Source of the DNA: Streptomyces pluripotens
Lineage (GTDB): Bacteria > Actinomycetota > Actinomycetes > Streptomycetales > Streptomycetaceae
Direction: 5' to 3'
DNA: 64,000 nt
Assembly: GCF_000802245.2 (NCBI RefSeq)
Contig: NZ_CP021080.1
Span: 1,860,001-1,924,000, forward strand
Positions 31,809 through 37,064 of the stretch are shown here, piece by piece. The notes beneath the pieces were generated by a model, which was not told where the DNA came from, searched no databases, and worked only from the letters and a program-made list of their open reading frames with translations. The translations under genes were made by a program, and so were the position numbers. The stretch's first letter is position 1; each line of letters starts with the position of its first letter.

Positions 31809-32061
31809 CGCGTCCTCCCCCGTGCGGTCAGCCCCTCAGCAGCACCTTAGCCACTCGCTTGTGCCACCCCTGCCATCCCCATCTGTGACACAAGCAACCC
31901 AGGCACGCTAGTCGTGGCCTTGCCTGGTCACCGAGTCTTGACACCATCCCGGAGCAGTACTGTCCGGAATGCGACCATGCCCTGCGTCGCCGCTAGCCGC
32001 TGCCGCCACGCATGTCCTTGACACACCCAGAAAATGAACCGCCCCGGGTTCGGTAGAGATC

Positions 32062-32157
32062 TCAGATTGTGGTGATGACCTGGGGTTTCTTGAGTTCGGT
32101 GTAGTAGTTGGCTTCGTATTCGACGGGCGGGATGTGCCCTATCTCACCGTGGAGTCG
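32062..32157 (-). CDS. IS3 transposase OrfB, 3' exon behind the intron
   Basis: The 31 codons read RLHGEIGHIPPVEYEANYY... and end at TGA, which is the C-terminus of IS3-type integrases (usually DWYNxxRLH...G.xPPxEYE). It follows directly on the intron 3' end. Joined to the 5' exon it gives ...IDWYNHR-RLHGEIG in frame. The IS terminal repeat begins 27 bases beyond the stop. Confidence 0.88.
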   Translation of the reverse strand, partial: RLHGEIGHIPPVEYEANYYTELKKPQVITTI

Positions 32158-34334
32158 GTAAGGTCGGCCCGGGGCGCGGTACTGGCCTTTCGACCAGCCC
32201 GTTTCCCCGGACCGCCTTCCGAACCCGCCGTGCGCCTCGTCAACGCAACGGGCTCTCCACAAGCCCCAGTTCGGGCCCGCGTCCGGTCCTCATGCTATCG
32301 CCAGCGGCCAGGGGGACGGAATTCGTGATCCTCGGTAGCGGTAACGCGTAGTGCGCACCTTTGCCGGGTCAAATAGATCCCGTTCCTGCCCTCTGGGCCA
32401 CCATTCGCCACCGCAGTAACGGCGACGCAGTTCCTTCCAGTTCATTCGGCGGTGCTTGCTACGAATCCATTTGATGACCCGACGCCATGCGTAGGCGCTC
32501 AGGTATTGGAAGGTAGCGCTAGACACCCCCGGCCGGAAGAACATGGTCCAACCTCGCAACACCGAGTTGAGTCGGCGTAGGAGTTCGTCCAATGGTTGGT
32601 TTGTGTTGACCTGTCGGCAGATCGTCTTGACCTTGGCCATGACGGCGTGAAGTGCCTTCTTGGCTGGGTAGGTGTAGACGTACCATCGGTCCGTGCCCTT
32701 CTTGCGATGGCGTTGGATGCGCCACCCCAGGAAGTCCACGCCCTCATTGATGTGGGTGATTAGGGTCTTCTCCTCTGACAGGTGCAGCCCCATTCTGCTG
32801 AGCACCTGTGCTGCCTCTTCCTTGAGGGTGTAGGCGTCTTCCTTCGTGCCAGTAACCGCAATCACCCAGTCGTCCGCGTACCGGCAGAGCCGGTAATTAG
32901 GCAGACCGCGGCGACGGCGCTTCGCTCGCTCGTTAGGTGTAGACGCTGGCCCTCCTGGCGCCTGGGCGAAGTGCTCGTCCAGGACGGCGAGGGCGACGTT
33001 GCTGAGCAACGGCGACAGGATCGAACCTTGCGGAGTACCGGATCTACTCTCCTTCAACGAGCCGTGTTCCGTGAGGATGCCCGCTTTCAGAAAGGCTTTC
33101 ACCAGCACCAGGACGCGTCTGTCCCCGATCCGAAGGCGCACCCGGTCCATAAGGGCCGGATGGGCAATCTCGTCGAAGCAGGCCCGGATGTCACCCTCAA
33201 CCACCCATTCGTAAGAGTGGGAAGTCAAGTGTCTTACCTCGGACACCGCGTCGTGGACCCGATAGTTGGGGCGGAATCCGTACGAGCACGGAAGAAAATC
33301 TGCCTCAAAGATTGGTTCCATCACCAGCTTCAGGGATGCTTGCACCACCCGATCGCGGATCGTACTGATTCCCAGGCGTCGACGCTTTGTCGACCCCGGT
33401 TTCGGAATCAGTCGCTCCCGTGCCGGAAGCGGCAGGAAACTGCGATCCTTCAGAGAGGAACGCAGCGCGCCGAGAAAACCCTCGACGCCCTGCTGCAGCG
33501 AAATGGACGCAGCCGTACGGCCGTCCACCCCAGCGGTTTTGGCTCCCCTGTTACTCCGAACCCGGTCCCATGCGACAAGCAAGAACGCGGGGTCGGTCAC
33601 GAGGTTGTACAGGTCGTCAAACCGCCGATGAGGATCATCTACGGCCCAACGGTGCAGCTTGGTCTGGATCTCCAGTACCCGGCGCTCGGCCTTCATCAAG
33701 GCCCACTCCAGTTCGTCGGTATTCACCAACGCCCTCCCGGCATTCCAGTTCCCTCCCTGCTGACTTGCTGGCCCCCTTCGCCGTGTACGCGCCTTTCGCG
33801 CGCTCGGACTACTACGGGGCCTCCGCCCCACTCCACGGCCAACAGCCGACAACGGGCCTGCCCATCACCGCACCGGATGTCCGGCGAGAGGGCGACCGGG
33901 AGTGGTTCCCACGTTCACTAGGAGTCGTTCGGCCAGGTCGGCGTCCAGCTCTATCCCGGCAGCATCGCCACGCCTACACCGCAGGTATTCAGCGTGGCCT
34001 CTGAGCCGTTTCACCGCGGGCGGCTTCAGAGTCGGCCCATCTCCTTGGAGGACGGGTCGCGTACTGCAACCCCGGCCCATATCCGCCAGGTTGGAGCCGG
34101 GAGGTACTGTTACGGGACTTCGGACGCTGATTCACTTTCGTTACGCCTTCTGGCCTTGCTAGCCGGACCCGAGCCGTCTGGCAGTGCCGACTCGTCCCGA
34201 CGTTGTCGAGGCTGCTTCCCGCCCTCCTCAGCGTTCCCTGAGTTGGACTGCCTCCAGCTTCAACCGGGCCTCTACGGCGGTCCGGCGGTGGGGATTCGCA
34301 CCCGCACACGATCTCCTAGCGCCTCGTGGCGCAC
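32158..34334 (-). ncRNA. Group II intron (ribozyme) inside the IS3 transposase gene
   Basis: The intron begins GTGCGCC at 34334 (the GUGYG consensus) and ends ...CCTTAC at 32158. Near the 3' end, a hairpin of about 35 bases at 32221-32255 (GAGCCCGTTGCG...CGCACGGCGGGTTC) matches domain V, with the AGC triad and the two-base bulge. Domain VI follows with a CTGGTC-GAAA-GGCCAG stem. Removing exactly these 2177 bases restores a continuous transposase frame. Domain IV carries the reverse transcriptase gene. The class was not determined. Confidence 0.9.
32290..33726 (-). CDS. ltrA: Group II intron reverse transcriptase/maturase
   Basis: A 478-residue intron-encoded protein. RT blocks are complete: GVDGRTAASI, RLIPKPGSTKRRRLGIS, GFRPNYRVHDAV, GDIRACFDEI, SGTPQGSILSPLLSNV near 229-244 and the catalytic YADD at 283-286. 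The C-terminal LRGWTMFFRPG...YLSAYAWRRVIKWIRSKH region is the maturase domain X. No HNH endonuclease motif follows, so it probably depends on nicked or single-stranded target DNA. The GTG at 33726 has GGGAGG six bases upstream; the frame runs open to 33852, but without a better site. Its stop lies just before domain V. Confidence 0.93.
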   Translation of the reverse strand: MNTDELEWALMKAERRVLEIQTKLHRWAVDDPHRRFDDLYNLVTDPAFLLVAWDRVRSNRGAKTAGVDGRTAASISLQQGVEGFLGALRSSLKDRSFLPLPARERLIPKPGSTKRRRLGISTIRDRVVQASLKLVMEPIFEADFLPCSYGFRPNYRVHDAVSEVRHLTSHSYEWVVEGDIRACFDEIAHPALMDRVRLRIGDRRVLVLVKAFLKAGILTEHGSLKESRSGTPQGSILSPLLSNVALAVLDEHFAQAPGGPASTPNERAKRRRRGLPNYRLCRYADDWVIAVTGTKEDAYTLKEEAAQVLSRMGLHLSEEKTLITHINEGVDFLGWRIQRHRKKGTDRWYVYTYPAKKALHAVMAKVKTICRQVNTNQPLDELLRRLNSVLRGWTMFFRPGVSSATFQYLSAYAWRRVIKWIRSKHRRMNWKELRRRYCGGEWWPRGQERDLFDPAKVRTTRYRYRGSRIPSPWPLAIA

Positions 34335-35168
34335 GCGGTGGTTGTACCAGTCGATCCACTCGGCGGTGGCCAGCTCGACCTGGGAGAGCGTCTTCCAGGG
34401 TCGCTGGGGTTTGATCAGCTCGGTTTTGTACAGGCCGATCGTGGACTCCATCAGGGCGTTGTCGTACGCGTCACCGACGGATCCGATGCTCGCCGCGATG
34501 CCGGCGGCGTCCAGGTGCTCGGCGAGGCGGAAGCTCGTGTACTGCGACCCGGCGTCCGAATGGTGTACCAACTCGCCTGGCTGTATGGGGTGTTGGTCCC
34601 GGTCGCGCTGCCAGATCGCCATCTCCAGGGCGTCCAGCACGAACACCGTCTCCTTCACCGTGGCGGCCGACCAGCCCACGATCCGGCGCGAGAAGGTGTC
34701 CACGACGAACGCGACATAGACGACGCCGGCGAAGGTCTTCACGTGCGTGAAGTCGGCTACCCAGCAGCGGTTCGGGGCGCCGGCGACGAACTCGCGGTCG
34801 ACAAGGTCGGGGGCCCGCTCGGCCTGCCCGCCGGGGATCGTGGTGATGACGCGTTTGCCGCGCACCGCGCCCTGGATGCCGAGCTCGCGCATCAGGCGCT
34901 CGACGGTGCAGCGGGCCACCGCATGCCCCTGCCGGTTCAGCTCGCGCCAGATCTTCCTCGCTCCGTAGACACGGTAGTTGGACGTGTAGACCTCGTGGAT
35001 CCTCTCCTTGAGCTCCTCGTCACGCACGGAACGGGCAGAGGGGGTTTCGAGGCGTTTCTTATGGGCGTAGTACGTGGAAGGGGCGATCTGGCAGTCGTGT
35101 GCGGTGAGCGTTCTGCAGATCGGCTCGACCCCGCCGAAGCGGTCCCGGTGCTCGTCGATGAACGCTAC
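34335..35168 (-). CDS. IS3 transposase OrfB, 5' exon
   Basis: Reads VAFIDEHRDRFGGVEPICRTL... then an integrase core with the DDE residues visible in CWVADFTHVKT (D), HHSDAGSQYTS (D) and ALMESTIGLYKTEL (E). The exon stops at IDWYNHR at 34335. Read through without splicing, it would end 21 codons later (VRHEALGD...). The frame is -1 relative to orfA and continues into it, so a full-length OrfAB is expected by programmed frameshifting. The slippery sequence was not identified with certainty. Confidence 0.88.
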
Positions 35169-35491
35169 GAGCGCGTGTGTGGCCGGTCGAGCTCGGCCGC
35201 GAAGAAACTCGCCGCGGCCTTCAGGATCTCGTTCGCCCGCTTCAGCTCGGCGTTCTCCTTCTTCAACGCCTTGAGCTGGGCGGATTCCTCCGTCGTCGTC
35301 CCTGGACGCTGCCCCGCGTCGATCTCGTACTGCTTCACCCAGTTCCGCAGCGTCTCGCGGGAACCGATGTCGAGCTTGTCCGCCACCGCTTGCAGGGCGG
35401 CCGTCTCGTTCGGGTAGTCGTCGCGCACTTCGGCAACCATGCGCACCGCGCGACGGCGCAGCTCAAGCGGGTAACGGGAGGGTCGTGCCAT
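35165..35491 (-). CDS. IS3 OrfA (DNA-binding transposase subunit)
   Basis: A 108-residue protein with the IS3/IS911 OrfA layout: a helix-turn-helix (RYPLELRRRAVRMVAEVRD ... DIGSRETLRNWVKQYEID) followed by a leucine-zipper helix (QLKALKKENAELKRANEILKAAASFF). AAAGGA precedes the ATG. It overlaps the orfB frame at its 3' end. It binds the terminal repeats and multimerises. Confidence 0.92.
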   Translation of the reverse strand: MARPSRYPLELRRRAVRMVAEVRDDYPNETAALQAVADKLDIGSRETLRNWVKQYEIDAGQRPGTTTEESAQLKALKKENAELKRANEILKAAASFFAAELDRPHTRS

Positions 35492-35541
35492 GACTCAATC
35501 CTTTCACGGAATCGAGTCTCTACCTGACACGGGGCGGTTCA

Positions 35542-36299: not shown

Positions 36300-36632
36300 G
36301 TGGATGTGCTGCACGAACGCTGCGCCGGCCTCGACATCAGCAAGAAGGACGCCAAGGCGTGTGTCCGCACCCCGAGTACCAAGCGGCGGGGATCCTTCAC
36401 GACCCAGACCACGACATGGGGGTCGACGACGAATGCGGTCCTGGCCCTGCGGGATCACCTGCTTGCCGCGCGGGTGACGCTGGTGGTCATCGAGGCGACC
36501 TCGGACTACTGGAAGCCCTTCTACTACCTGCTGGCCGAGGACTTGAACGTGATCCTGGTCAACGCGCGGCAGGTCAAGAACCTCCCCGGCCGCAAGACGG
36601 ACGTCTCGGACGCGGCCTGGCTGGCCCAGCTA
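36300..36632 (+). pseudogene. IS110-family transposase, N-terminal fragment
   Basis: Residues 1-111 are a clean IS110 RuvC-like domain: GLDISKKD (first Asp), VVIEATSDYW (Glu), and RKTDVSDAAWLAQL (last two Asp), the full DEDD set. After AWLAQL the homology stops abruptly and the frame runs antisense into rnpB. The C-terminal transposase domain with its catalytic Ser is absent, so the gene cannot be active by itself. Confidence 0.85.
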
Positions 36633-36644
36633 AGCTGCAGGCAG

Positions 36645-37064
36645 CGGCAGACGAGTCGGGCTGTACGCCGGGTTCTGTTCCCCGGGGTCCTCGCGGGCCT
36701 CGGGGCGACGGCCATCCATCTAGGACCGGCGTTGCCACCGGTCTCGTGCGGTCTACCCGCGGACTCGGGCGGGCAGCCCTCGAACGTCCGCGCAGGAGCC
36801 CCCGAGAAGGGGTCTCCCTCTTGACCTTGCTCCGGGTGGGGTTTACCTAGCTGCCCAGGTCACCCTGGGCACTGGTGGTCTCTTACACCACCGTTTCACC
36901 CTTACCGAGGACCGAGATCCCCGGCGGTCTGCTTTCTGTGGCACTGTCCCGCGGGTCACCCCGGGTGGCCGTTAGCCACCACCCTGCCCTGTGGAGCCCG
37001 GACGTTCCTCGGGAAGGCCCCCTGAGGGGACTCCACGCGGCCGTCCGCCCGGCTCGTCTGCCGT
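36645..37064 (-). ncRNA. rnpB: RNase P RNA, bacterial type A
   Basis: On the minus strand the P1 arms CGGCAGACGAGCCGGGC (from 37064) and GCCCGACTCGTCTGCCG (to 36645) pair with a single G-U. Between them are the conserved blocks GAGGAACGTCCGGGCTCCAC, GGTAAGGGTGAAACGG, GGTAAACCCCACCCGGAGCA and ACAGAACCCGGCGTACAG. The 420-base size fits streptomycetes. This is the catalytic RNA that matures tRNA 5' ends. TATCAT at 37073-37078 (read on the minus strand) is a -10 element starting the RNA at about 37066. The 3' side meets an IS110 fragment after 12 bases. Confidence 0.96.

Follow-up and report, generated by a model that had tools for sequence, protein, structure and literature searches.

Introduction

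Group II introns have been described inside transposase genes in at least two systems. PMC3522654 describes E.c.I4 nested in the Escherichia coli IS3-like elements IS629, IS911, ISEc16 and ISEc31, with less than 1% divergence within a strain and up to 100% occupancy of its sites (7 copies and 0 free sites in strain E24377A). In Sinorhizobium meliloti, RmInt1 resides in ISRm2011-2 and, according to PMC4238363, limits this host insertion sequence (IS) through poor splicing; it reportedly contacts G-16, T-15 and G+4 of its target (PMC8914252). Given these precedents, an intron nested in a transposase gene is an arrangement of an already known kind. Here, we describe such an arrangement in Streptomyces pluripotens, where a group II intron interrupts the transposase gene of an IS3-family element within a 64,000-nucleotide (nt) stretch of contig NZ_CP021080.1 (assembly GCF_000802245.2, positions 1,860,001 to 1,924,000), hereafter the window. 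As far as sequence comparison can establish it, the anatomy of the nested elements, the covariation of intron-exon pairing, the full occupancy of exact target sites and, for most copies, the spread of the intron after the IS had dispersed are established.

The window intron resembles E.c.I4 in its IS3 nesting, low within-strain divergence and site saturation. The two may differ in position: the E.c.I4-like intron of an E. coli plasmid (L170), which we liken to ours by its location in an IS3-type transposase only and whose maturase is 36.6% identical to the window's, interrupts the gene near a VADFT motif, whereas the window intron lies at WYNHR|RLH. With RmInt1 it shares residence in a transposase, a maturase without an endonuclease domain, EBS3-IBS3 pairing (exon- and intron-binding sites, respectively) and a candidate T-15 contact, but RmInt1 is a class D intron in another IS. 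PMC8919778 names S. pluripotens among the genomes mapped, and a survey of titles and abstract openings, covering few subscription papers, yielded no description of a Streptomyces intron in an IS3 element. The locus extends intron-in-IS3 nesting to Streptomyces and offers a natural experiment, with nine exact sites occupied across three IS lineages, in which intron versus exon divergence separates retrohoming from hitch-hiking.

An intact group II intron lies in frame within the IS3 transposase gene

We found both ends of the IS, TGAACCGCCCCG at 35541 and its inverted counterpart at 32035, each flanked by AAA on the plus strand, as the first-pass annotation had proposed (Table 1). The element has the TG..CA inverted ends, 3-bp duplication, two overlapping frames (with presumed frameshifting) and DDE transposase of the IS3 family. 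Within orfB, the intron begins with GTGCGCCACG and ends with CCGACCTTAC; these ends (GTGCG...TTAC) fit the group II pattern of 5' GUGYG and 3' AY, and those of its relatives are similar. Removal of the intron leaves an empty IS of 1330 bp and joins the orfB exons into an open frame, ...EWIDWYNHR-RLHGEIGHIPPVEYEANYYTELKKPQVITTI, whose product scored 270.1 bits against NCBIfam transpos_IS3. The exact in-frame junction proposed at first pass was borne out in this way, as were the intron's length, its two ends and its domains V and VI.

Domain V carries a 2-nt bulge and domain VI a bulged A, and the domain V variants of relatives preserve the hairpin. RNA folding left an A of domain VI unpaired 7 nt from the intron 3' end (32164), the predicted branch point. 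The full-length intron open reading frame (ORF) encodes a group II reverse transcriptase (RT)/maturase (TIGR04416, 342.6 bits; cut-off 300), and a domain search of this ORF found no endonuclease domain. From the intact catalytic RNA parts and the exact in-frame junction, we infer that the intron splices in vivo and restores the transposase message.

Table 1. Features of the nested elements, in window coordinates
Feature	Position	Strand	Remark
IS3-family insertion sequence, intron-bearing	32035..35541	minus	TTT 3-bp duplication on minus strand
orfA, HTH_Tnp_1, 108 amino acids	35165..35491	minus	
ALIL-type frameshift pseudoknot match, orfA/orfB overlap	35079..35213	minus	45.1 bits, under Rfam cut-off 50
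orfB 5' exon (DDE integrase core), ends ...IDWYNHR	34335..35213	minus	start uncertain because frameshifting is presumed
T at -15	34349..34349	minus	17/22 insertion-site clusters of family
IBS2 GGTAC (exon -14 to -10)	34344..34348	minus	
IBS1 CACCGC (exon -6 to -1)	34335..34340	minus	
Group II intron, 2177 nt	32158..34334	minus	
EBS2 GUACC (intron 228-232)	34103..34107	minus	
EBS1 GCGGUG (intron 318-323)	34012..34017	minus	
EBS3 G (intron 384)	33951..33951	minus	
Intron-encoded RT/maturase (RVT_1, GIIM)	32290..33759	minus	start codon uncertain
Domain V, 35 nt, GACGA loop	32221..32255	minus	expected fold, z -3.2
Domain VI and intron 3' end	32158..32216	minus	z -5.1
IBS3 (exon +1, C)	32157..32157	minus	
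orfB 3' exon, RLHGEIGHIPPVEYEANYYTELKKPQVITTI	32062..32157	minus	stop 32064-32062

Every exact target site is filled, and introns diverge less than the IS copies that hold them

The S. pluripotens genome, examined as a single 7.35-Mb contig by DNA search and retrieved stretches, holds ten near-identical copies of the intron: eight full-length in IS copies, one full-length elsewhere (the ectopic copy) and one split by an insertion. Nine of the ten occupy one and the same codon junction in IS3 copies, which belong to three lineages with six (99-100% identical to the window IS), two (92%) and one (85%) members; the single third-lineage copy, L026, is missing its left IS end. No empty IS copy turned up in this genome when the IS body served as query and the best 40 of 215 candidates were scored. 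The exact 13-base IBS2-IBS1 stretch, GGTACAACCACCG, occurs nine times and is occupied by the intron each time (9/9), versus 0/17 sites with one mismatch, six of which are identical repeats with one EBS2 pair off target.

In a wider sample of the genus, presumably Streptomyces, 317 of 392 genomes gave a match to the joined 1330-bp IS (E <= 1e-3, many of the matches weak). Among 29 related IS loci retrieved from other genomes, 25 aligned uninterrupted across the junction, including L155 with a one-base gap nearby and L143 aligned via a second piece, and GGTACNNNCACCG was kept in 19 of these 25; the other four (L150, L157, L158 and L167) did not align across it. Empty copies in related genomes, for which the first pass had suggested a search, were recovered with the 1330-bp query. 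Taken together, the nine same-junction copies and the 25 uninterrupted relatives place the nested arrangement beyond chance.

We then compared the divergence of introns with that of their exons. Across the five unbroken first-lineage copies (leaving out L020, the split copy), 16 of 1330 exon positions but only 1 of 2177 intron positions segregated (Fisher p 1.9e-6), and across seven copies from two lineages the counts were 122/1330 and 1/2177. In pairwise comparisons, introns were at most one base apart while the exons of their IS copies differed at 2 to 119 of 1330 positions. Near-invariant introns in divergent exons indicate that the intron reached most IS copies after the IS had dispersed. 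The exon differences also adjoin the intron directly (C, G or A at -1; C or A at +1), and therefore the flanking exon was not co-converted there. These comparisons argue that the intron spread mostly via retrohoming into already dispersed IS copies rather than by riding on the IS.

We also considered a lagging-strand bias and did not use it. With dnaA at 3.53 Mb, 7/10 copies (ectopic included) are fork-codirectional, and with every exact site already filled strand orientation permits no firm conclusion.

The intron pairs with its target at three sites, and T-15 seems to be recognised too

To map target recognition, we searched for covarying exon-intron pairs among related introns. Of the 64 loci tried (L030-L093, from 80 related loci), 30 allowed both intron ends to be placed by pattern; adding L035, whose ends were placed manually, and four sites from the S. 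pluripotens genome brought the set to 35 introns at 30 distinct sites. The search placed EBS1 at intron 318-323, EBS2 at 228-232 and EBS3 at 384. Over the 30 sites, pairing with the intron's own exon averaged 3.8/6 for EBS1, 4.0/5 for EBS2 and 0.93/1 for EBS3, levels that 0/2000 permutations of the exons reached for each EBS. The window intron pairs fully (6/6, 5/5 and 1/1). At 93% of the 30 sites, intron position 384 can pair with exon +1, against 44-46% expected, as in IIB-type recognition.

For the bases outside the pairings, we added 10 loci (19 of 29 tried lacked clear ends) and dropped two with short flanks, which gave 43 sites in 22 clusters. T was present at -15 in 17/22 clusters (p 1.3e-10, one of 45 positions examined) and A at -8 in 13/22 (p 1e-5, 45 positions examined); the RmInt1 bases G-16 and G+4 showed no enrichment in these 22 clusters. 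In the S. pluripotens genome, T-15 was found at 10/10 occupied sites versus 1/17 unoccupied one-mismatch sites; that one site, L185, has mismatches at both -1 and +1. Another unoccupied site, L194, offers complete pairing to EBS1, EBS2 and EBS3 but carries a G at -15. Besides EBS pairing, recognition seems to involve T-15, presumably through a protein contact. The mapped EBS set and the candidate T-15 rule apply to a large actinobacterial intron family and could serve intron retargeting in Streptomyces.

The explanation that we hold to be very probable is that of a recently amplified intron, with IIB-type target recognition and a maturase without an endonuclease domain, that homes into WYNHR|RLH-encoding DNA and whose splicing would restore the transposase message. 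An RNA-protein particle would home into the DNA for this motif in related IS3 transposases, then reverse-splice and be reverse-transcribed into resident IS copies, as would fit the absent exchange of flanking exon, until every exact target copy in this genome was filled. How reverse transcription would be primed is a presumed element of the model.

Several observations weigh against this explanation. L026 is occupied although both -1 and +1 are mismatched, and EBS1 pairing is poor for the ectopic copy, so pairing alone is no predictor of occupancy. T-15 was noticed post hoc, and both of its tests include copies from the S. pluripotens genome, nine of which derive from one ancestral site. Lastly, the comparison with group II models suggested by the first-pass annotation came out divided: domains V and VI fold as expected, but the sole group II match among the Rfam models, RF02003, reached 14.2 bits against a cut-off of 49. 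We judge this miss to be a limit of the models because the intron ends, domains V and VI, the maturase and the EBS covariation all agree with a group II intron.

Consequences for the transposon and other routes of intron spread

It is possible, though on balance unlikely, that the intron gives the IS little or no useful splicing and that the nested IS copies are effectively dead transposons filled by a retroelement. RmInt1 reportedly ligates <1% of exons in vivo (PMC4238363). Among relatives of the window intron, L047 lies antisense to an IS4/5-type transposase and its splicing is therefore no help to that gene. In S. pluripotens itself, a one-base insertion at the intron 3' junction of L020 shifts the joined frame, and L026 is without its left IS end. 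However, an intron depends on its excised RNA to move, and the near-identity of the ten copies indicates that it moved recently; in addition, 7/8 copies with both IS ends keep an intact joined orfB frame. That the IS can move only if the intron splices, as the first-pass annotation held, is a plausible supposition.

An unspliced message might instead yield a partly working transposase, a prospect to which we give a slim chance. Unspliced orfB still encodes the D, D and E region and terminates in WYNHR-VRHEALGDRVRVRIPTAGPP; the readthrough (VRHEALGD...) has the same H-x-x-L-G spacing as the missing C-terminus. Scores for the spliced, unspliced and truncated products were 58.2, 54.4 and 43.7 bits against rve_3, 41.3, 25.8 and 23.9 against rve_2, and 270.1, 257.3 and 248.8 against transpos_IS3. 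On a shortened transposase, adding the intron-coded tail took the rve_3 score from 45.8 bits up to 56.2, with 59.8 for the spliced product; none of the control tails approached this gain (45.3-48.4 for five shuffled tails, scored out of eight generated, and two other frames). The rve_2 result went against mimicry: the intron tail scored 27.2 (truncated 25.4, spliced 42.7), and 3/5 shuffles scored higher (29.4-30.5). Since introns at unrelated sites have a similar 5' end, any mimicry of the C-terminus did not evolve at the IS3 junction. If the unspliced product did work in part, the intron would tune the transposon rather than disable it, with splicing selecting between two transposase C-termini.

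Rather improbable, in our assessment, is that the intron spread chiefly as a passenger inside transposing IS3 copies, with splicing having supplied the transposase. The IS did move, since of the eight copies complete at both IS ends five are flanked by 3-bp duplications (TTT, CAG, CTT, GAC and GTT) and three are not; moreover, L025 and L027 have identical exons (0/1330 differences), different flanks and the intron in both. They are the sole pair compatible with joint transposition. Against this route, the exons of the other copies have diverged (16/1330) where introns have not (1/2177), and the tenth copy is flanked by sequence other than this IS3. The sole intron variant, at position 1077, is common to L027 and L024, which lie in different IS lineages, and L025 carries the other allele despite its exons equalling those of L027; as a single site, this is thin evidence alone. 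The first-pass view of the intron as cargo of the IS is accordingly contradicted for most copies in this genome and is compatible with L025 and L027 only. Homologous recombination or gene conversion among IS copies, similar enough on either side of the intron to permit it in principle, is very improbable as the source of the spread. Flanking exon differences would be expected to move with the intron, yet the lineages still differ at both -1 and +1; nor does this route account for the ectopic copy.

The intron family in other genomes

The first-pass annotation called group II introns uncommon in Streptomyces. This was not borne out: of 199 genomes sampled from the genus, 43 encode a group II RT scoring above the TIGR04416 cut-off, and such introns are therefore not rare there. 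The intron DNA had a match, often partial, in 137 of 392 sampled genomes. At least 7658 proteins matched the maturase at E <= 1e-100 (8000 candidates scored), and among the 120 matches listed the nearest non-self maturase was 82% identical. The intron of Streptomyces dysideae (L030; maturase 76% identical to the window's) has similar ends, and that of Rhodococcus jostii pRHL2 (L204; 53.5%), which we take to be Rh.js.I1, has a similar domain V form; both differ from the window intron in EBS sequences and insertion sites. Rh.js.I1 has been placed in variety g1 (PMC3552965). A tblastn search with the transposase on L030-L139 found no break at the window codon junction except at L110, a locus of the S. 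pluripotens genome.

Relatives of the intron are often located in other mobile genes. Among nine joined ORFs, hand-picked rather than drawn at random from 41 listed loci, Pfam placed six in DDE or Mutator transposases (one antisense); the others were an IS30-type-looking transposase (by its helix-turn-helix), a group II RT and a PCMT-like methyltransferase. At L039, L043 and L079, relatives are inserted right after the YADDF codons of other group II-type RTs (the host RT Pfam-checked for L043 only), a twintron-like arrangement. The introns of L170 and L087 each interrupt an IS3-type transposase close to its first catalytic aspartate motif (VADFT and VSDL, respectively), and separate introns therefore seem to use the same conserved codons. 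Many domain V loops of the family are GNRA tetraloops; the GACGA pentaloop of the window intron and the GCCAA or GCTAA loops of others read as GNRA plus one extra pyrimidine, and some loops match neither form.

Other elements also interrupt IS3 relatives. In G079 (L157), the IS3 relative is broken near 2712, at most a few bases from the intron position; we rejected this as a second intron at the same junction because its sequence start is unlike that of the window intron, and inspection by eye suggests that the interrupting element encodes a tyrosine recombinase. In G289 (L143), an element whose protein is IS110-like by eye interrupts the DAYDN catalytic motif at ~2581, and matches in several other genomes end at or within a few bases of this break point. 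Within S. pluripotens, L020 (7311980-7321524) is nested at three levels, with a ~1.34-kb element encoding a DDE_Tnp_1 transposase, presumably ISAs1-like and flanked by an 11-base duplication, inside the intron inside the IS3. Elsewhere in the window, an RNase P RNA (RF00010, 284 bits, minus strand) occupies window positions 36648-37056, and its 3' end overlaps the ORF at 36300-36824, by eye a truncated IS110-type transposase.

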